From IMG/VR virus record IMGVR_UViG_3300021960_000412, positions 1-27,157 of that record: a stretch of DNA of 27,157 nt, one strand, 5' to 3'. This document shows, piece by piece, positions 3,216 through 26,950 of this stretch. The first letter of the stretch is position 1. Each line of letters begins with the position of its first letter. The notes beneath the pieces are model-generated. The model saw nothing but the letters and a program-made list of their open reading frames with translations. It searched no databases and was not told the DNA's origin. Position numbers and translations under genes: made by a program. Source of the stretch: a virus.

Positions 3216-3223
3216 TATAAATA
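3216..3223 (+). promoter_or_regulatory. T4-type late promoter (TATAAATA) for the neck/packaging operon
   Basis: Perfect TATAAATA, 35 bases upstream of the gp13 start. The box overlaps the 5' arm of the terminator hairpin at 3219-3246. By T4 geometry transcription should begin near 3229-3231, inside the hairpin. Confidence 0.75.
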
Positions 3224-5535: not shown

Positions 5536-6588
5536 ATGATATCAAATTATTTTTACCACGAGATATTGAGAAAGACGATTATATCTTTCGGTACTCTCTT
5601 TAATGATATTCAAATAAAACATCGTGATAAAAGTGGTGTGGACTTTAGTATAATTACTGTCCCAATTGCTTATGGTCCTATCCAAAAGTTTTTAGCAAGA
5701 ATTGAACAATCACCAACGGTAAGAAAGGAAGTTGCGATTACTCTACCAAGAATGTCATTTGAAATGACAGGTGTTCAATATGATGCATCAAGAAAGTCTT
5801 CTACTATGCAGACTTTTAAGGCTGTCGATTCTGAAAAGAATCAGATTGTCAAATCTTTTATGCCTGTTCCATATAATATAAGTTTTCAATTATCAATCCT
5901 CTCCAAACTCAATGAGGATGCTTTACAAATATTGGAACAGATTTTGCCATACTTTCAACCACACTTAAATCTAACAGTAGATTTAGTAAGTAGTATCGGC
6001 GAAAAGAAAGATATCCCAATGATTCTGGAAGGAATCACAATGGATGATCAATATGAAGGAGATTATACTACAAGAAGAGCCTTAATATATACACTAAATT
6101 TTACGGCAAAGACTTATCTATTCGGACCTGTCGGAAACTTCAACGATTCCCTAATTAAGAAAGTTCAAGTCGATTATCATACAAATACCGATAATATCGC
6201 CAATTCTTCTAGACAACTTAGATATACTGCAGAACCAAGAGCTCTCAGAGATTATAATAGTGATGAGAGTGCTATCATACTTGGTGATATTGATGAAAAT
6301 GTAACTGAGATTTCTGTATCTGAAATTGCCAAGTTCTCACAAGGAATTTATCTTCAAATTGAAGATGAAGTAATGTATGTCAGAAAAGTTGGAGAAACTG
6401 AAATTCTCGTTAATAGAGGGGAAAATAACACGGTAGCATCAACCCATATCGAAGGAACTGCTATCAACATAATTGATAATCTTGATAATCAACTAATATC
6501 TCTCGATGATGATTTTGGATTCAGTGAATACCGTTTTGATTTTGAAGACGGAAAGGTTTATAGTCCATCAAAAGGAATTGATGTATGA
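5536..6588 (+). CDS. gp15: Tail completion and sheath stabiliser gp15
   Basis: Residues 1-235 match gp15: N-Y-F-Y-H-E-I-L-R-K, F-N-D-I-Q-I, V-P-I-A-Y-G-P-I-Q-K-F-L-A-R near 42, then L-P-R-M-S-F-E-M. In T4, gp15 forms a hexameric ring on top of the tail that joins gp3 and the sheath to the neck. The protein is 350 residues against 272 in T4. The extra C-terminus (about 245-315) reads I-L-G-D-I then D-E-V-M-Y-V (277-282), N-R-G (293-295) and A-S-T-H-x-E-G-T, a small beta module seen in many phage structural proteins. The gene starts 28 bases after gp14 and overlaps gp16 by ATGA. Confidence 0.88.
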   Translation: MISNYFYHEILRKTIISFGTLFNDIQIKHRDKSGVDFSIITVPIAYGPIQKFLARIEQSPTVRKEVAITLPRMSFEMTGVQYDASRKSSTMQTFKAVDSEKNQIVKSFMPVPYNISFQLSILSKLNEDALQILEQILPYFQPHLNLTVDLVSSIGEKKDIPMILEGITMDDQYEGDYTTRRALIYTLNFTAKTYLFGPVGNFNDSLIKKVQVDYHTNTDNIANSSRQLRYTAEPRALRDYNSDESAIILGDIDENVTEISVSEIAKFSQGIYLQIEDEVMYVRKVGETEILVNRGENNTVASTHIEGTAINIIDNLDNQLISLDDDFGFSEYRFDFEDGKVYSPSKGIDV

Positions 6589-7010
6589 GTTTTGAAGACA
6601 TTGATAAGGCTCTAGACATTGAGACAACTCCGATTAAATCAGAGATTGTCAAGACAGAACCAACTGCAATAAAAAAAGAGTCACCAGACCAAATTCAAAA
6701 AGACTATGAGTACTCTAGAGGTCAACTCTATTCCATCATTGAGAAGGGTCAAGAGGCAATCAATGGCATTCTAGAACTTGCACAAGAATCCGATTCCCCC
6801 AGAGCCTATGAAGTTGCTGGACAACTCATTAAGAATGTTGGTGATGTTACAGATAAACTCATTGATCTTCAGAAGAAGATGAAGGATATTAATCAGGAAC
6901 AAAAAGGTTCTGCACCTACCAATGTTACTAATAATGCAGTATTTCTTGGTTCAACTGCGGAACTTCAAAAGTTCTTAAAAGGATCCATGAACGGGGATCT
7001 CCCTAAATAA
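6585..7010 (+). CDS. gp16: Terminase small subunit gp16
   Basis: A 141-residue protein in the T4 position between gp15 and gp17. Residues about 35-100 form a long helical, coiled-coil-like segment (D-Y-E-Y-S-R-G-Q-L-Y-S-I-I-E-K-G then L-A-Q-E-S-D-S-P-R-A-Y-E-V), the known core of T4 gp16, which assembles into rings, recognises DNA and stimulates gp17. T4 gp16 is 164 residues. The C-terminus is polar and flexible. Translation is coupled to gp15 (ATGA at 6585). Unlike T4, where 16 and 17 are adjacent, two genes lie between them here. Confidence 0.85.
   Translation: MSFEDIDKALDIETTPIKSEIVKTEPTAIKKESPDQIQKDYEYSRGQLYSIIEKGQEAINGILELAQESDSPRAYEVAGQLIKNVGDVTDKLIDLQKKMKDINQEQKGSAPTNVTNNAVFLGSTAELQKFLKGSMNGDLPK
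7003..7009 (+). promoter_or_regulatory. Possible late promoter variant (CTAAATA)
   Basis: CTAAATA overlaps the last codons of gp16 (AAA TAA) and is 33 bases upstream of ATG 7036. Same variant and spacing as before gp15 and gp18; tentative. Confidence 0.3.
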
Positions 7011-7035: not shown

Positions 7036-9402
7036 ATGGATAAACTCACCTTTAAGGAGTGGTCTATTCTATCTGACCTAGAAACTATTGCGCCTCTTGG
7101 AGAGGACTTTGAGTTTTCTATGGCTCGTGGAGAACTTAAGACTGCAAAGACTGCTATCAATAGATTGATGCGTCATCTCAAAGGAGAAGGTGATCTTGAA
7201 GCATGGGTTCAATCAAAAATTACAAAGGCATCTGAGTATCTTGATACCGTAGCCGACCATATGGATGGCGGTGAAGATGACACAGAAAAAAAGAAAGAGG
7301 TAAAGGAAGGAAAAAAGTCTAAGTGCGATTGTGATTGTGGACAGGATCCTTGCGTAAAGTGTGGAGAAAGTCATCACGATATTAAAGAAGGGAAAGAATC
7401 AAAAGAAGCGAAGAAGTGTCCAGACGGTAAGTACTGGTGCATGACTGATAAGAAGTGCAAAAAGATCCCTAAAGGTTGGCACATGATGAGAAGTGGACTC
7501 ATCATGAAAGATGAAGAACACGAAGAAGAAGGTAAGAAGAACGGTAATGGAAATGGTGAAGGATCTGAATCAAATGGTGGCGGGGTAAGCGAAGGTAACG
7601 ACATATTTCATCAAGGCAATCCCAATCCTCAAATGAGAAACATGCCTATGGGACAAAGAAATGTTGATAAACTTGCATCCTCTTATTCAAAATCTATAAG
7701 GAGTGCTGCAGTAGGTGGGCTTAATTCTATGTCCAAGGCAGCTCAATCTGCAAAAAACACTAAACTAATGAAGAGTGATAGTGTAAGAGTTGCAGAAGGA
7801 TGTGGTAGTACACACTCACCCAAAAAGAAAAAGAAGAAATTATCCGAGATGATTTCTACTACTATGGATGGTAGAAGATATAGAAATGTTGATAACAAAG
7901 AAGATCAATCAAGATTTGAAAAAGAAAAAGAAAAAGAAAAGGAATCTAAAAGAAAAGAAGCTAAGGAGAGAAAAAAAGAATTAGCTTATGAGAGACAAAC
8001 CAAAGGTATTCGTTTCTACGATAAGAAAGGATCTGGTTACATCAGAGATGGTAAAAAAGTCTATGATGAATCTGCAAAGTTGGATGAAAAATGTTGGGAT
8101 GGATACAAACAACTTGGAATGAAAAAGAAAGGGAAAAAAGTAGTTCCCAATTGTGTGAAGGAGGATTCTATTGATGAAAACAAGAGTGGTGATAGTTCTT
8201 TGCGTGACTGGTTTACTAAGAGTCGTGCTTCTGATGGCACCCCTGGTTGGGTTCAACTTGGTGGTAAATACGCAGGAAAACCCTGTGCAAAACAACCAGG
8301 ACAAACAACCAAACCAAAGTGTGGTTCAAGTAAAATGAAGGCAGACCTCTCTGATAAAGAAGAGGAAAGTGCATTCCGTCGTAAGAATCAGGAAGACCCA
8401 AATCCCGATAAAAAGGGTAAGGCAAAGAACGTTGCCACAGAAGAAAAAGATCATGAAGTCTCAATGGCACACAAACAATTGAATAAGACAATTGCAAATG
8501 CCAAACAACTTAAAAAAGATCTAGGCAAAAAAGAAAAAAATATACCAGCTTGGGTTCAAGCAAAGATTACTGATACTGATCACAATATGGATGCAGCTTC
8601 TGGTTATTTGGCAAAGGAAGCGGCTGGAGAAAAAGACGCCTGTTATTCCAAAGTAAAGTCTCGTTACTCCGTATGGCCTTCTGCATATGCATCTGGTGCT
8701 CTAGTCAAGTGTCGTAAAGTTGGTGCAAAGAACTGGGGTAACAAGACCAAGAAAGAAGGTTATGAGTTCTCCAATTGGAGAGATGAATTCAAAGCAACTG
8801 AGTATGAGTCCTTTAACATTGTTGAACCAACTCCTCTAAAAGAAAGTGAGGAGATTAGATATTGCCCTAAGTGCAAAAAGAATGAAAAGAAAAAAGAGTG
8901 TAAGTACGGTGAGAAGTATTGGACAATGTTCTCTCTACCCCCATCATTAGGTGGCGGTGGTGCTTATGATCCTAACGAAGTTCATCCCGCAAATGAGGGA
9001 TTGAGTTTTGAAATTGGTGGAGGACACAAGAAAGCACAGAAGATGGGTAAAATCCGTAACCTCTCTAAAGGTGCAACTGGTGGAGAAAAGGATGCTGCTC
9101 AAGCCGCGTTAAAGAGACTCGGTGGAGGAGTTTCACTTCCACTCGCAGATTCAGTCATCTATCCAGGACAATTAAAAACTGAAGATTATCAGAAATTACA
9201 GTCAACTGGTAATGTTTTCAGTATAATGTTGATGTGGAGAGGAAAAACTTATCGTTTGCAACTGTTCTTCTCTGGTTCTAAGAGACCATCAAGAGAAGAA
9301 GTCAAGGCAGAAATCCAAAAGTTCTACCCAGGTGGAGTTTTGACTCACTACTATCCAAGTCCATCTGATCCAACACAACCAATTGTAGTTATTCAAAGGT
9401 AA
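7036..9402 (+). CDS. Modular Lys/Cys-rich protein of unknown function (788 aa), likely virion or head-associated
   Basis: A mosaic of short modules joined by Lys/Glu-rich linkers. Residues 28-78 and 475-530 are two copies of one helical module (A-W-V-Q-(S/A)-K-I-T then a helix with M-D). Residues 97-148 are Cys-rich (C-D-C-D-C, C-V-K-C, then C-P-D-G-K-Y-W-C and G-W-H). Residues 353-375 read C-W-D-G-Y-K-Q-L-G-M then P-N-C-V. Residues 388-433 (S-L-R-D-W-F, G-W-V-Q-L-G-G, K-P-C, P-K-C) resemble DUF5872. Residues 533-570 (D-A-C-Y-S-K-V-K-S-R-Y, W-P-S-A-Y-A-S-G-A-L-V-K-C-R) are another known marine-phage module. Residues 610-622 hold a C-P-K-C knuckle, and 725-788 a distinct C-terminal domain. There is no enzyme signature. 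It sits between the two terminase genes behind a possible late promoter, so a packaged or prohead role is plausible but unproven. Confidence 0.75.
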   Translation: MDKLTFKEWSILSDLETIAPLGEDFEFSMARGELKTAKTAINRLMRHLKGEGDLEAWVQSKITKASEYLDTVADHMDGGEDDTEKKKEVKEGKKSKCDCDCGQDPCVKCGESHHDIKEGKESKEAKKCPDGKYWCMTDKKCKKIPKGWHMMRSGLIMKDEEHEEEGKKNGNGNGEGSESNGGGVSEGNDIFHQGNPNPQMRNMPMGQRNVDKLASSYSKSIRSAAVGGLNSMSKAAQSAKNTKLMKSDSVRVAEGCGSTHSPKKKKKKLSEMISTTMDGRRYRNVDNKEDQSRFEKEKEKEKESKRKEAKERKKELAYERQTKGIRFYDKKGSGYIRDGKKVYDESAKLDEKCWDGYKQLGMKKKGKKVVPNCVKEDSIDENKSGDSSLRDWFTKSRASDGTPGWVQLGGKYAGKPCAKQPGQTTKPKCGSSKMKADLSDKEEESAFRRKNQEDPNPDKKGKAKNVATEEKDHEVSMAHKQLNKTIANAKQLKKDLGKKEKNIPAWVQAKITDTDHNMDAASGYLAKEAAGEKDACYSKVKSRYSVWPSAYASGALVKCRKVGAKNWGNKTKKEGYEFSNWRDEFKATEYESFNIVEPTPLKESEEIRYCPKCKKNEKKKECKYGEKYWTMFSLPPSLGGGGAYDPNEVHPANEGLSFEIGGGHKKAQKMGKIRNLSKGATGGEKDAAQAALKRLGGGVSLPLADSVIYPGQLKTEDYQKLQSTGNVFSIMLMWRGKTYRLQLFFSGSKRPSREEVKAEIQKFYPGGVLTHYYPSPSDPTQPIVVIQR

Positions 9403-9407
9403 TCCAA

Positions 9408-9578
9408 ATGAACCCTTCCGACATTGAACTTTCTGATATTAATAAAATGTTAGTCTATGAACAACAGGCAAGGGACATAGATAAGATGGATAGAGACCAA
9501 GCAATAAATTTTGCGAAGGCCTATCTAAAATTATATCTCAAACAACAAGAGGTAGTTGCAGATTTAGCAAGAATGTGA
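9408..9578 (+). CDS. Small NblA-like protein (56 aa)
   Basis: ATG 9408 to TGA 9576-9578 encodes 56 residues, predicted to be almost wholly helical. It fits snugly between the 788-aa gene (5 bases) and gp17 (6 bases), which supports a real gene. The sequence recalls cyanobacterial NblA, the phycobilisome-degradation adaptor of about 55-65 residues. I-E-L-S (6-9) opens both, and M-D-R-D-Q-A-x-x-F (27-35) matches the NblA M-S-x-(D/E)-Q-A-x-x-F stretch with nearly the same spacing, followed by a helix with Y-L-K. The comparison is from memory. NblA is known from Microcystis phage Ma-LMM01. The alternative is an unrelated small packaging accessory carried between genes 16 and 17. Confidence 0.72.
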   Translation: MNPSDIELSDINKMLVYEQQARDIDKMDRDQAINFAKAYLKLYLKQQEVVADLARM

Positions 9579-9584
9579 TTTTTT

Positions 9585-11234
9585 ATGAGTGAACAGGTAT
9601 ATCTTGGTAATCCCAATCTAAAGAAGGCTAATGTAGCCGTTGAATTTACACAGGAACAAGTACTTGAGTTTATCAAGTGCAAACAAAATCCTGTGTATTT
9701 TGCACGTAACTATATCAAGATCGTTTCTCTTGACTATGGTGAAGTGTCTTTTGACATGTACCCATTCCAAGAGAAGTTAATCAATAATTTCCACGAAAAT
9801 AGATTCAACATTTGTAGAATGCCTCGTCAGACAGGTAAATCCACAACTTGTGTTTCATATTTGTTACATTATGCGGTGTTTAACGATAATGTTAACATAG
9901 CTATTCTAGCGAACAAAGCATCAACTGCACAGGATCTACTCAGTAGGTTACAATTTGCATACGAGAAACTGCCAAAGTGGATGCAGCAAGGTATCGTATC
10001 ATGGAATAAACGTTCTCTAGAATTAGAAAATGGTTCAAAGATTATCGCCGCGTCTACTTCTGCATCTGCTGTCCGTGGCGGATCGTACAATGTCATCTTT
10101 CTGGACGAGTTCGCATTCATCCCGAACCACATTGCTGATGACTTCTTTGCCTCTGTATATCCTACTATTTCGTCAGGTAAAAGCACGAAGGTCTTGATTG
10201 TTTCTACCCCAAAGGGTATGAATCATTTCTACCGCATGTGGCATGATGCGGAGAGAGGAAAGAACGAATATATTCCAACTGATGTTCACTGGTCTGAAGT
10301 TCCTGGTAGAGACGAAAAATGGAAACAACAGACTATTGCAAACACATCCGAACAACAGTTCAAGGTTGAGTTTGAGTGCGAATTCTTAGGATCAGTTGAT
10401 ACACTTATATCTGCTCCAAAATTACGTTCGATGGTATACGAAGATCCAATCAAACGTAACGCTGGTTTGGATGTTTATGAAGAACCACAGAATGACCATA
10501 ACTACGTACTTACTGTAGACGTTGCTCGTGGAGTTGAAAAAGATTATTCCGCATTTACGGTAGTAGATACAACAACATTCCCATATCGTTTGGTTGCAAA
10601 GTATAGAAATAATCAAATAAAACCGATGCTCTTCCCGAGTATTATTAAAGATCTTGCAAATGCATATAACAAAGCATACGTATTAGTTGAAGTCAATGAT
10701 ATTGGAGAACAAGTCGGTCAGATTCTCCATATGGATTTGGAGTATGACAATGTTCTTATGTGTTCTATGAGAGGACGTGCTGGTCAAATAGTAGGTCAAG
10801 GATTTTCTGGTAAAAAATCACAGATGGGCGTAAAGATGTCCAAGACTGTCAAGAAAGTTGGTTGCATGAACCTAAAGACACTACTTGAAGATGATAAATT
10901 AATAATCAAAGATTATGAGATTATTAGTGAACTCACTACATTTATTCAAAAATCAAATTCATTTGAAGCGGAAGATGGATGTAATGATGACCTTGCAATG
11001 TGTCTAGTTATTTTCTCATGGTTGGTGATGCAACCATACTTCAAAGAAATGACGGACAATGATGTTCGTAAGAGAATTTATGAAGAACAGAAAAATCAAA
11101 TTGAACAAGACATGGCACCTTTTGGATTTATATCCGATGGTTTAGATTCAACTGGTAGTTTTGTTGATGAAGAAGGTGATAGGTGGCATGTAGATGAATA
11201 TGGTGATATGCAGTATATGTGGGATTACCGATAA
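9585..11234 (+). CDS. gp17: Terminase large subunit gp17 (packaging ATPase and nuclease)
   Basis: A 549-residue protein with both gp17 domains. The ATPase has Walker A R-M-P-R-Q-T-G-K-S-T (78-87), Walker B V-I-F-L-D-E (170-175) and the coupling motif V-S-T-P-K-G (206-211). The RNase H-like nuclease has acidic residues in T-V-D-V-A-R-G (D312), V-L-V-E-V-N-D (E369) and C-N-D-D-L-A (D468/D469), the equivalents of the T4 gp17 triad D401/E458/D542. It pumps DNA through portal gp20 and cuts concatemers. T4 gp17 is 610 residues; the missing length is N-terminal. The C-terminal tail is acidic. The stop overlaps the next start as TAATG. Confidence 0.95.
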   Translation: MSEQVYLGNPNLKKANVAVEFTQEQVLEFIKCKQNPVYFARNYIKIVSLDYGEVSFDMYPFQEKLINNFHENRFNICRMPRQTGKSTTCVSYLLHYAVFNDNVNIAILANKASTAQDLLSRLQFAYEKLPKWMQQGIVSWNKRSLELENGSKIIAASTSASAVRGGSYNVIFLDEFAFIPNHIADDFFASVYPTISSGKSTKVLIVSTPKGMNHFYRMWHDAERGKNEYIPTDVHWSEVPGRDEKWKQQTIANTSEQQFKVEFECEFLGSVDTLISAPKLRSMVYEDPIKRNAGLDVYEEPQNDHNYVLTVDVARGVEKDYSAFTVVDTTTFPYRLVAKYRNNQIKPMLFPSIIKDLANAYNKAYVLVEVNDIGEQVGQILHMDLEYDNVLMCSMRGRAGQIVGQGFSGKKSQMGVKMSKTVKKVGCMNLKTLLEDDKLIIKDYEIISELTTFIQKSNSFEAEDGCNDDLAMCLVIFSWLVMQPYFKEMTDNDVRKRIYEEQKNQIEQDMAPFGFISDGLDSTGSFVDEEGDRWHVDEYGDMQYMWDYR

Positions 11235-11464
11235 TGGATATAGAAGATTCTTTTGAATTAGAACATCTGTTTTTAACAGAAAGAAAATGTAGATCTTGTG
11301 GTGAAATAAAAGATCTTATAGATGGTTTTTACTTAACAAGAAAGGATAGAGGGACTATACCATCTGCATATTCATACGAATGTAAAGTTTGTACTATAAA
11401 AAGAATAACTGTTAGTAGAATGACTAATAAAATTTTTGATAGATGGGAATATCCTGACTGGTAG
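11234..11464 (+). CDS. Small zinc-binding protein, HNH/endonuclease VII-type zinc motif (76 aa)
   Basis: The best start is ATG 11234, sharing its A with the gp17 stop (TAATG), although the frame is open to an upstream start at 11219. The protein has two Cys pairs, C-R-S-C-G-E and C-K-V-C, about 35 residues apart with F-Y-L-T-R-K-D-R-G and Y-S-Y-E between them. This is the layout of the zinc-binding part of endonuclease VII/HNH-type phage proteins. The catalytic His-Asn part is absent, so it is probably a DNA- or protein-binding remnant rather than a nuclease. Coupling to gp17 suggests a packaging-related role, which is inference only. Confidence 0.72.
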   Translation: MDIEDSFELEHLFLTERKCRSCGEIKDLIDGFYLTRKDRGTIPSAYSYECKVCTIKRITVSRMTNKIFDRWEYPDW

Positions 11465-23460: not shown

Positions 23461-23934
23461 ATGCAAAAACGCAAGAGATCAGAACATTACGTTAACAACA
23501 AGGAATTTTTAGAAGCAATTGTTCAATATAAAATTGACGTAAAGAGAGCTGAAGAAAACGGACTTCCAAAACCTCGTATTACCAATTACCTTGGCGAGTG
23601 TTTCCTGAAGATTGCTACTCACCTTTCATACAAACCAAACTTTGTCAATTACATGTTCCGTGAGGACATGATCTGTGACGGAATCGAGAATTGTGTTCAG
23701 TACATTCATAATTTTAATCCTGAGAAATCTTCGAATCCTTTTGCTTACTTTACGCAGATCATTCATTACGCATTTCTCCGTAGAATCCAGAAGGAGAAAA
23801 AACAGATGGAGATCAGAAGTAAAATCATTGAGAGGTCTGGTTATGACGAAGTGTTCACGGTAGATGATGACTACGGCAACTCTTCCGACTATAATAGCAT
23901 TAAGGATTCTATTCAAACAAAAATGTATCAATGA
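23461..23934 (+). CDS. gp55: Late-transcription sigma factor gp55
   Basis: A 157-residue protein (T4 gp55 185). It is a minimal sigma factor that, with the sliding clamp, directs host RNA polymerase to TATAAATA late promoters. Typical segments are Y-V-N-N-K-E-F-L-E-A-I, the region-2-like helices L-G-E-C-F-L-K-I-A-T-H-L, F-R-E-D-M-I-C-D-G-I-E-N-C and N-P-F-A-Y-F-T-Q-I-I-H-Y-A-F-L-R-R-I-Q-K (the promoter-melting/-10 reading helix), and K-K-Q-M-E-I-R. Start ATG 23461 has AAAAGGGA about 11 bases upstream; an out-of-frame ATG at 23453 lies in between. Driven by its own host-type promoter, and overlapping gp47 by ATGA. Confidence 0.93.
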   Translation: MQKRKRSEHYVNNKEFLEAIVQYKIDVKRAEENGLPKPRITNYLGECFLKIATHLSYKPNFVNYMFREDMICDGIENCVQYIHNFNPEKSSNPFAYFTQIIHYAFLRRIQKEKKQMEIRSKIIERSGYDEVFTVDDDYGNSSDYNSIKDSIQTKMYQ

Positions 23935-24977
23935 CCCTAGTTGCATGTGTGACTGACACCCATTATGGTGCCAGAAAAGGTAGTAAAACCTTTCATGATT
24001 ATTTTAAAAAGTTCTATGAAGATATTTTCTTCCCAGAACTAGAGAAGAGAAATATTAAACACTGTATTCACCTTGGTGATGCATTTGATAGCCGTAAGTC
24101 CATTGATTTCTGGTGTCTGAACTGGGCAAAAGAAAATGTCTATGACAGGTTCCGTGATCTTGGAGTTACTGTTTATCAAATTGTAGGTAACCACGACGCA
24201 TATTATAAGAACACGAATGAAGTCAACTCCATCGAGTCCCTTTTAAGAGAGTATGACAACATTGTTCCTATCTCTAGTCCTGGTGAATACGATGTTGCAG
24301 GAATGAACACCTTTATGATTCCCTGGATTTCTGCAGAGAATCAAGAAGAAACACTTACCAAACTTTCTAAGACTAAAGCAAAGGCTGCGTTTGGTCACTT
24401 GGAACTACAAGGATTTGCAGTTTATCCTGGTAATGTTCAACAACATGGTATGGAAACTAATGTCCTCGACAAGTTTCAAATTGTTTGTTCTGGACACTAT
24501 CACACTCGTTCTAACAACGGTAAAATTTTCTATCTTGGCAATCCTTATCAGTTGTTCTGGAATGATGTAAACGATAAACGTGGATTCAACTTCTTTGATA
24601 CGGAAACGTTTGATTTGGAGTTTGTTGAGAATCCTTATACGATGTTTGAACGGATTTATTATGAAGATAATAAACCACAACTATTCAATGCAGAACCTTA
24701 CAAGGACAAGATCGTAAAGATTATTGTTCGTAAGAAGTCTGATCAACTTCAGTTTGAAAAGTTTGTTGACAAGATTTATAAGACTGGTGTAGTAGATATT
24801 AAAATCGTTGAAAACTTTGAAGTAAACGATGATGATGTAGAGTTTGACTCTGAAAAAGTCGAAGATACTATCACCATTTTAAATAAATACGTTGAGGACT
24901 CTGATTTTGGTCTAGATAAAGAAAAGGTCAAAACACTTTTACGAGAAGTCTACCAGGAAGCTTGCGAGATGGAATAA
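23931..24977 (+). CDS. gp47: Recombination exonuclease subunit gp47 (SbcD/Mre11-like)
   Basis: A 348-residue metallophosphoesterase (T4 gp47 339). The phosphodiesterase motifs are all present: D-T-H (D9, H11), G-D-A-F-D (49-53), G-N-H-D (86-89), G-H (155-156) and G-H-Y-H (188-191), which bind the two catalytic metal ions. With gp46 it resects DNA ends to feed UvsX/UvsY recombination and contributes to host DNA breakdown. The C-terminal part is acidic and helical and probably contacts gp46. It begins inside the gp55 stop (ATGA) and is followed after one base by a small gene that separates it from gp46. Confidence 0.95.
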   Translation: MTLVACVTDTHYGARKGSKTFHDYFKKFYEDIFFPELEKRNIKHCIHLGDAFDSRKSIDFWCLNWAKENVYDRFRDLGVTVYQIVGNHDAYYKNTNEVNSIESLLREYDNIVPISSPGEYDVAGMNTFMIPWISAENQEETLTKLSKTKAKAAFGHLELQGFAVYPGNVQQHGMETNVLDKFQIVCSGHYHTRSNNGKIFYLGNPYQLFWNDVNDKRGFNFFDTETFDLEFVENPYTMFERIYYEDNKPQLFNAEPYKDKIVKIIVRKKSDQLQFEKFVDKIYKTGVVDIKIVENFEVNDDDVEFDSEKVEDTITILNKYVEDSDFGLDKEKVKTLLREVYQEACEME

Positions 24978-24978
24978 T

Positions 24979-25245
24979 ATGTATATGTTAACGCCATACG
25001 GAGATGAAGACGGTGCTTATGCTGTCAGAGATTCGCATGGAACTAAAACATTATATTTTTTTCAAGATGAGGATGATGCTGAAAGATTTTTAATCTTGTT
25101 GGAAGCAGATGACCACCCAAAAATGGAAGTTGTAGAAATTGATCCAGAACTTGCAATAAAGGCGTGTCACGAGTATAATTACAACTATGCTATCATCTCT
25201 CCAGATGACCTTGTGATTCCTCCTAGACCAAATGATAATTTTTAA
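24979..25245 (+). CDS. DUF3110-like small protein (88 aa)
   Basis: Lies between gp47 (one base) and gp46 (14-base overlap). The core reads A-Y-A-V-R-D, L-Y-F-F-Q-D-E-D-D-A-E-R-F (28-40), L-L-E-A-D-D-H-P (44-51), then V-V-E-I-D, and ends I-I-S-P-D-D-L-V-I-P-P. This is the pattern of DUF3110 proteins, a family concentrated in cyanobacteria, where F-(x)-D-E-D-D-A-x-R-(F/Y) and L-L-E-A are typical. The family has no established function. A second ATG (24985) in frame is an alternative start. Location inside the 47/46 unit suggests a role tied to the nuclease, or simply cargo acquired from a host. Confidence 0.75.
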   Translation: MYMLTPYGDEDGAYAVRDSHGTKTLYFFQDEDDAERFLILLEADDHPKMEVVEIDPELAIKACHEYNYNYAIISPDDLVIPPRPNDNF

Positions 25246-26950
25246 AAACATTCGTTGGAAAAATTTCCTGTCAACTGGAAATAATTTCACTGAAGTGAAT
25301 TTTCAAGACGCTAATACAAACTTAATTGTAGGAACAAATGGTTCTGGTAAGAGTACGATCCTAGACGCTCTTACCTTTTCTTTGTATAACAAACCATTCC
25401 GAAAGATTAATAAACCTCAACTTATCAACTCAGTAAATGAAAAAGACTGTGTTGTTGAGATTGAGTTTTCTATTGGCAATCGTGAATACAAGGTAGTTCG
25501 TGGAATCAAACCAAATGTGTTTGAGATCTGGGTAGACGGAAAAATGCAAGATCAAGATTCTGCAGCTCAAGATCAACAGAAGAAACTAGAAGAAAGTATT
25601 CTTAAACTTAACTATAAGTCTTTTACTCAGACTGTCATTTTGGGATCGGCAACCTTTGTCCCATTTATGCAGCTGACCTCTGCTAATCGTAGAGAGATCG
25701 TTGAGGATCTTTTGGATATTAAGATCTTCTCCACGATGAATAACATCCTGAAAGATCGGATGCGTAAAACTAATGAACTCATTCGTGAGTACTCAATCAA
25801 GAAGGATATGGTTGAGGAAAAGATTGAGATGCAAGAAAACTTTATCCGTGATTTGGATAAGAGTGGTAAAGAACGAATCGGTAAGAAAGAAAATAGTATT
25901 CAGGAAATAGAAACTGAGATTGAAGAAGTCACTGATCAAAACGAGACTCTTTTATCCAAGATTGATACGGAACTCCAACCCGAGTTAGAGAAACTTAACA
26001 ATTCAAAGTCTACGCTCAAAAAACTCAATCAACTCAGAGCCAAACTGGAACAAAAGATACAAACTTTGGTTTCTGAACATAAGTTTTTCCAAGAAAATAC
26101 GGTTTGCCCTACCTGTACCCAGAGCATTGAGAATGAATTTCGCTTAAATAAAATTGTAGATATTGAGGAGAAATCCAAAGAACTCAATGACGGATACCGA
26201 GAGTTGGAGGATGCAATCAATGTAGAACAGGAAAAAGACGAACAATTCTTATCTTATTCTACGGAGATTAACAGACTCAACAATGACATTTCAAAAAACA
26301 ATGTTAAGATTACTGGGCTTAACAAACAAATCAGAACTCTTAGAAACGAAATTCAAGAAATTACCGAACAAATACAAAATAGAAATTCTGAAAGGGAAGC
26401 CCTTGACAATTTAATAAAAGATCTTGATACAGTAGAAAAACAAAGGTCTACGGAAAAAGAACAAGTAAATTATTATGAGTTCGCTCATTCACTCATGAAA
26501 GATGGTGGAGTGAAGTCCAAGATCATCAAAAAGTATCTGCCTCTTATGAATCAGCAGATAAACAAGTATCTACAGATGATGGACTTCTACATCAACTTCA
26601 CGTTGGATGAAGAGTTTAAGGAGGTTATCAAGTCACCAGTACACGAAGACTTTAGTTATGAATCGTTTAGTGAAGGTGAGAAGATGCGTATTGACCTATC
26701 TCTCTTGTTTACCTGGCGGGACATTGCCAAACTCAGAAACTCGGCCAGTACAAATCTTCTCATTCTAGACGAAATCTTTGATAGTTCACTAGATGACGCA
26801 GGAACCGATTTCTTTACCAAGATCATTCGTTATGTAATTCAGGATGCTCACGTATTCGTAATCTCACACAAGACAGACGATATCATGGATAAGTTTGACA
26901 AGGTGATGAGATTTGATAAAGTAAAGGGATTCAGTAAACTAGTGTCATGA
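25232..26950 (+). CDS. gp46: Recombination exonuclease subunit gp46 (SbcC/Rad50-like ATPase)
   Basis: A 572-residue SMC-like ATPase (T4 gp46 560). Walker A is G-T-N-G-S-G-K-S-T (34-42). Residues ~180-290 and ~300-410 are two long coiled-coil arms joined by the zinc hook C-P-T-C (292-295). The ABC signature F-S-E-G-E-K-M-R (479-486) and Walker B L-L-I-L-D-E-I-F-D (509-517) follow, then V-I-S-H-K (543-547). It dimerises through ATP and the hook, and drives gp47 nuclease in end resection for recombination-dependent replication. The start overlaps the DUF3110-like gene by 14 bases; the stop overlaps the next ORF by ATGA. Confidence 0.96.
   Translation: MIIFKNIRWKNFLSTGNNFTEVNFQDANTNLIVGTNGSGKSTILDALTFSLYNKPFRKINKPQLINSVNEKDCVVEIEFSIGNREYKVVRGIKPNVFEIWVDGKMQDQDSAAQDQQKKLEESILKLNYKSFTQTVILGSATFVPFMQLTSANRREIVEDLLDIKIFSTMNNILKDRMRKTNELIREYSIKKDMVEEKIEMQENFIRDLDKSGKERIGKKENSIQEIETEIEEVTDQNETLLSKIDTELQPELEKLNNSKSTLKKLNQLRAKLEQKIQTLVSEHKFFQENTVCPTCTQSIENEFRLNKIVDIEEKSKELNDGYRELEDAINVEQEKDEQFLSYSTEINRLNNDISKNNVKITGLNKQIRTLRNEIQEITEQIQNRNSEREALDNLIKDLDTVEKQRSTEKEQVNYYEFAHSLMKDGGVKSKIIKKYLPLMNQQINKYLQMMDFYINFTLDEEFKEVIKSPVHEDFSYESFSEGEKMRIDLSLLFTWRDIAKLRNSASTNLLILDEIFDSSLDDAGTDFFTKIIRYVIQDAHVFVISHKTDDIMDKFDKVMRFDKVKGFSKLVS

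Follow-up and report, generated by a model that had tools for sequence, protein, structure and literature searches.

An NblA-like gene upstream of the large terminase gene in a T4-like cyanophage

Introduction

ORF237 of Synechococcus phage S-SCSM1 has been identified by HHpred as a homolog of NblA, the adaptor that delivers the light-harvesting antenna of the host to a protease, as have its relatives in other cyanomyoviruses (PMC9602691), and, in the account given in PMC9602691, NblA of phage S-TIM5 had been predicted earlier by Nadel 2019. The S-SCSM1 and S-TIM5 proteins both fall within the family of a small open reading frame at positions 9408 to 9578 of the window that we analyzed, the whole 27,157-nucleotide stretch of a virus record (IMG/VR IMGVR_UViG_3300021960_000412), with E values of about 1e-24 against the family profile. 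The nearest named ortholog of ORF 9408-9578 is a gene of phage S-SCSM2R that carries the GenBank label "NblA" and likewise lies upstream of terL. Published work has thus already recognized this family as distant NblA relatives, and ORF 9408-9578 is a further member.

A phage NblA would allow a virus to strip its host's main light-harvesting protein store, and in recent work a marine cyanophage has reportedly been shown to infect faster owing to a viral NblA. We found no functional (bleaching) test in the literature for the phage branch to which ORF 9408-9578 belongs.

Results

The 27-kb window covers the block of structural genes of a T4-like cyanophage, including gp13 to gp15, gp16, terL, endonuclease VII, tail sheath and tube, portal, protease, and capsid genes. 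Its terL region is matched by 492 phage records, mostly those of Synechococcus phages. The features surrounding ORF 9408-9578 are as follows.

6585-7010, plus strand: terminase small subunit (gp16; PHROG 445, E 1.3e-56)
7036-9402, plus strand: upstream neighbor of 788 codons with no listed function (PHROG 727 and others)
9395-9399, plus strand: AAAGG ribosome-binding site, read from the sequence, 8 bases 5' of the ATG and within the end of the upstream gene
9408-9578, plus strand: 56-residue ORF for an NblA-like small protein of PHROG 27081 (translation, relatives, selection, and profile match)
9585-11234, plus strand: downstream neighbor, terminase large subunit (gp17, terL; PHROG 2, E 1.4e-77)

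Gaps of 5 bases to the stop codon of the preceding gene and 6 bases to terL flank the ORF, bearing out the tight fit that an earlier note on this DNA had claimed, and translation of 9408-9578 gives the 56-residue peptide described there. The note had also placed the ORF between the terminase genes, which is correct for gp16 and terL as the outer pair, but the 788-codon gene intervenes after gp16. Compared with relatives at 64 to 100% amino acid identity, synonymous change per site far exceeded replacement change per site, with dN/dS mostly at 0.05 to 0.3. Because of the AAAGG site, the tight gaps, the low dN/dS, and the many relatives described below, ORF 9408-9578 is confirmed as a real gene rather than a chance ORF.

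Other genes of the window showed features of their own. The middle of the 7036-9402 gene is variable and rich in lysine and glutamate, with several PHROGs matched piecewise and relatives alignable only in part. A small endonuclease VII-like gene (11219-11464; PHROG 4723) overlaps the end of terL and occupies the same site in many cyanomyoviruses, and a DUF3110 protein (24979-25245) is flanked by gp47-like (23931-24977) and gp46-like (25232-26950) ORFs.

Searches with ORF 9408-9578 itself identified 45 IMG/VR loci with relatives at 44 to 100% identity, and searches with an alignment identified at least 583 related IMG/VR loci. PHROG 27081, for which no function is listed, was matched by all 26 family members tested and by ORF 9408-9578 with an E value of 4.7e-15. 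The family is therefore much bigger than its sparse annotation, in which members belong to a PHROG of "unknown function" and are mostly labeled "hypothetical."

The gene was present in 25 phage records, every one a Synechococcus phage, with S-SM2 and Bellamy as culturable carriers. The earlier note had regarded conservation in phages whose hosts lack phycobilisomes as evidence against NblA. We found no such carrier, and the named carriers are all Synechococcus phages; S-SCSM1, however, also infects Prochlorococcus. By itself, the lack of carriers among Prochlorococcus phages does not reach significance, as the overall rate predicts about 1.2 carriers in the 24 such records among the terL-region matches.

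A scan of genome contigs for the family matched only NHGE01000016.1 and NZRR01000014.1, two contigs of Euryarchaeota-labeled metagenome-assembled genomes that carry the gene upstream of neck genes. Since the two copies cluster with genes of Synechococcus phages on the family tree, these contigs look like cyanophage sequences misbinned as archaea.

We compared the family with NblA by profile methods. The Pfam NblA profile (NblA / Ycf18, PF04485; cut-off, 25 bits) readily detected NblA in Microcystis phage Ma-LMM01 and Planktothrix phage PaV-LD, with E values no worse than about 1e-12. It gave no match to ORF 9408-9578 and missed the family gene in 13 carrier phage genomes. For two sister proteins encoded next to terL, NblA was the sole Pfam match, with E values of 0.0053 and 0.05 and scores of 17.6 and 14.5 bits that fall short of the cut-off, and this match was ungapped, aligning residues 14-50 with profile positions 7-43. 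In profile-profile comparison by hhalign, 64 family members aligned with eight NblA sequences over 55 columns, the full length, at a P value of 4.9e-5 and a probability of 68%. With an enlarged NblA set, P values were 7e-5 to 1.6e-4, and probabilities across the variants were 50 to 70%; the score of 23.8 exceeded those of all 200 column shuffles, which reached 18.5 at most, and the 11.7 obtained with the reversed profile. Against a thin set of viral NblA sequences, mostly of the Microcystis type, the probability was only 12%.

Single NblA sequences compared with the family profile against 700 decoys ranged from better than all true decoys to ordinary, with decoy counts that include one true relative: the highest-scoring "decoy" is a member of the family from S-SKS1. 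The family profile matched no NblA in the PDB and had no match in Ma-LMM01 or PaV-LD. A CTPR match (7obi, E 6.9e-6) was set aside as a sum of weak helical-repeat matches with no single significant stretch, and an OGG_N Pfam match (E 0.15) was dismissed as chance level. Thus, the profile check proposed in the earlier note gave a divided answer: Pfam NblA misses ORF 9408-9578, while two sister proteins and the profile-profile comparison reach NblA. Taken together, our tests moderately support NblA homology of the family.

The motifs on which the earlier note had based its proposal, I-E-L-S and M-x-x-D-Q-A-x-x-F, do match Anabaena NblA (1OJH), in registers one residue apart, but the exact IELS and MDRDQA strings are limited to close relatives of ORF 9408-9578. 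Conservation across the family consists of I-x-L near the start, hydrophobic spacing, and a Y-x-K-L-Y-x-x-Q-Q-E block in helix 2. The most strongly conserved residues, Y39, K41, L42, Q47, and E48, are not those of NblA itself. In the NblA set, helix 1 starts with an L-x-x-E-Q signature whose L, E, and Q are invariant; the E-Q has no conserved counterpart in the phage family, which has L-x-x-x-x-K-x-F there. Many relatives adjacent to terL have L53 and K/R55 at the places of Leu51 and Lys53 of Anabaena NblA, two residues that matter for phycobilisome binding; we treat this correspondence only as a lead.

AlphaFold2, run with family members, predicted ORF 9408-9578 to encode a confident two-helix protein (mean pLDDT, 95.3).

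9438-9482, plus strand: predicted helix 1, codons of residues 11-25 (AlphaFold2 model)
9492-9572, plus strand: predicted helix 2, codons of residues 29-55, with conserved Y39, K41, L42, Q47, and E48 (AlphaFold2 model and family alignment)

The model is a helix-loop-helix with a short helix 1 and a long helix 2, within the range of about 50 to 65 residues sought for NblA, and the model of an undisputed viral NblA, built as a control, had helices at residues 11-26 and 29-57. The predicted fold is not unlike NblA, an unlike fold being among the outcomes that the earlier note had counted against its proposal. Two-helix folds are simple, however, and such a likeness could arise by convergence. Foldseek searches of the PDB and of viral models found nothing significant for the ORF 9408-9578 model, but we consider these searches uninformative because the model of the undisputed NblA likewise failed to find the NblA crystal structures.

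Placement of the gene bears on its probable timing. Among 128 family loci, 46 were directly upstream of terL, 67 were upstream of the neck gene gp13, and 15 were elsewhere or could not be placed. The earlier note had called a location in the packaging operon unexpected, but the late neck/packaging cluster proved to be the typical family site (113/128 loci). The family tree implies at least eight changes of place, with place tracking subclades; the tree rests on few columns and many of its forks are unresolved.

3216-3223, plus strand: TATAAATA, an octamer resembling a T4-type late promoter, located 35 bases ahead of gp13 and the nearest exact octamer upstream of ORF 9408-9578

Seven of the nine ATAAATA sites in the window (1951, 3217, 14701, 16437, 16975, 17662, and 17666, all on the plus strand) lie 30 to 43 bases before gene starts (binomial p about 2e-8), as expected of T4-type late promoters; their placement, not their total count, is above chance. 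Our scan of the window found no ATAAATA site directly before ORF 9408-9578, which would therefore be read through from upstream. Since the family sits mostly upstream of terL or gp13, late expression of ORF 9408-9578 is plausible.

Discussion

We consider it likely that ORF 9408-9578 encodes a divergent phage NblA that would route phycobilisomes to Clp proteolysis, probably late in infection. This reading accords with the published annotation of relatives, which partly supports it, and the NblA identity proposed in the earlier note stands on the published assignments, the S-SCSM2R label, the profile-profile match, the helix layout, and the host range, and is weakened by the Pfam miss and the missing conserved E-Q. 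In the mechanism that we propose, a two-helix protein would be made late, probably within the neck/terminase transcription unit, and would pair as a dimer. The dimer may bind both phycobiliproteins and the ClpC chaperone of a Synechococcus-type host, so that phycobilisomes would be degraded by the Clp protease, which would release amino acids and reduce light capture. Phycobilisome degradation by the product of ORF 9408-9578 is predicted from sequence.

The same gene might instead encode a small late helical protein linked to assembly or the virion, such as a neck, terminase, or scaffold accessory, whose likeness to NblA reflects only a shared short two-helix build. Residence of 113 of 128 loci in the neck/terminase cluster, the conserved helix 2 block without an NblA counterpart, and the failure of Pfam NblA to detect ORF 9408-9578 or its family would all suit such a protein. 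We nevertheless regard it as unlikely, as the gene occurs in only 25 phage records versus 492 with a similar terL region and hence is dispensable. Furthermore, its site varies through at least eight moves among terL, gp13, and positions far from structural genes, such as the tRNA genes of S-TIM5; every named phage that carries it is a Synechococcus phage; and its NblA profile match exceeds column shuffles. Quite improbable, in our assessment, is a retuned NblA homolog that still serves as a host ClpC adaptor and delivers a target other than phycobilisomes. Retention of the helix layout with loss of the invariant E-Q and gain of a new invariant helix 2 block is consistent with such retuning, but nothing that we observed points directly to another target, and the host range of the carriers matches hosts that bear phycobilisomes.

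A broader scenario has a small but real chance of being correct: an NblA lineage that diverged fast and was relocated to the late neck/packaging operon may be widespread among T4-like Synechococcus phages, timing antenna breakdown to virion assembly, with the new helix 2 block marking a changed target or binding mode. With the family mostly among late structural genes, the point at which T4-like infections break down the antenna is directly testable in S-SM2 and Bellamy.

Among known systems, NblA of S-SCSM2R (SSCSM2R_118, XQU50031.1) is of the same family (58.8% identity and E 6e-12 by tblastn with ORF 9408-9578) and occupies the same site, after the large gene following gp16 and upstream of terL, differing in that an additional 276-base gene separates it from terL. 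NblA proteins of S-SCSM1 (E 7e-5) and S-TIM5 (E 3e-6) also belong to the family at 41 to 44% identity by tblastn, but, unlike ORF 9408-9578, their genes are distant from terL and are located close to tail fiber genes and among tRNA genes. More distant are the NblA proteins of Ma-LMM01 and PaV-LD, which resemble the ORF 9408-9578 product in size and helix layout. Ma-LMM01 NblA and the family have an IDKM-x-x-x-Q-A stretch in common, yet the Ma-LMM01 type belongs to PHROG 23930 rather than 27081 and is the only one of the two detected by Pfam NblA, and Ma-LMM01 nblA adjoins nrdA, unlike ORF 9408-9578. Cyanobacterial NblA (1OJH, 3CS5, and 2Q8V) differs in its L-x-x-E-Q signature, which is not conserved in the phage family, and gives no direct sequence match, but it too is a short two-helix protein, and its profile match to the family has a P value of about 5e-5.
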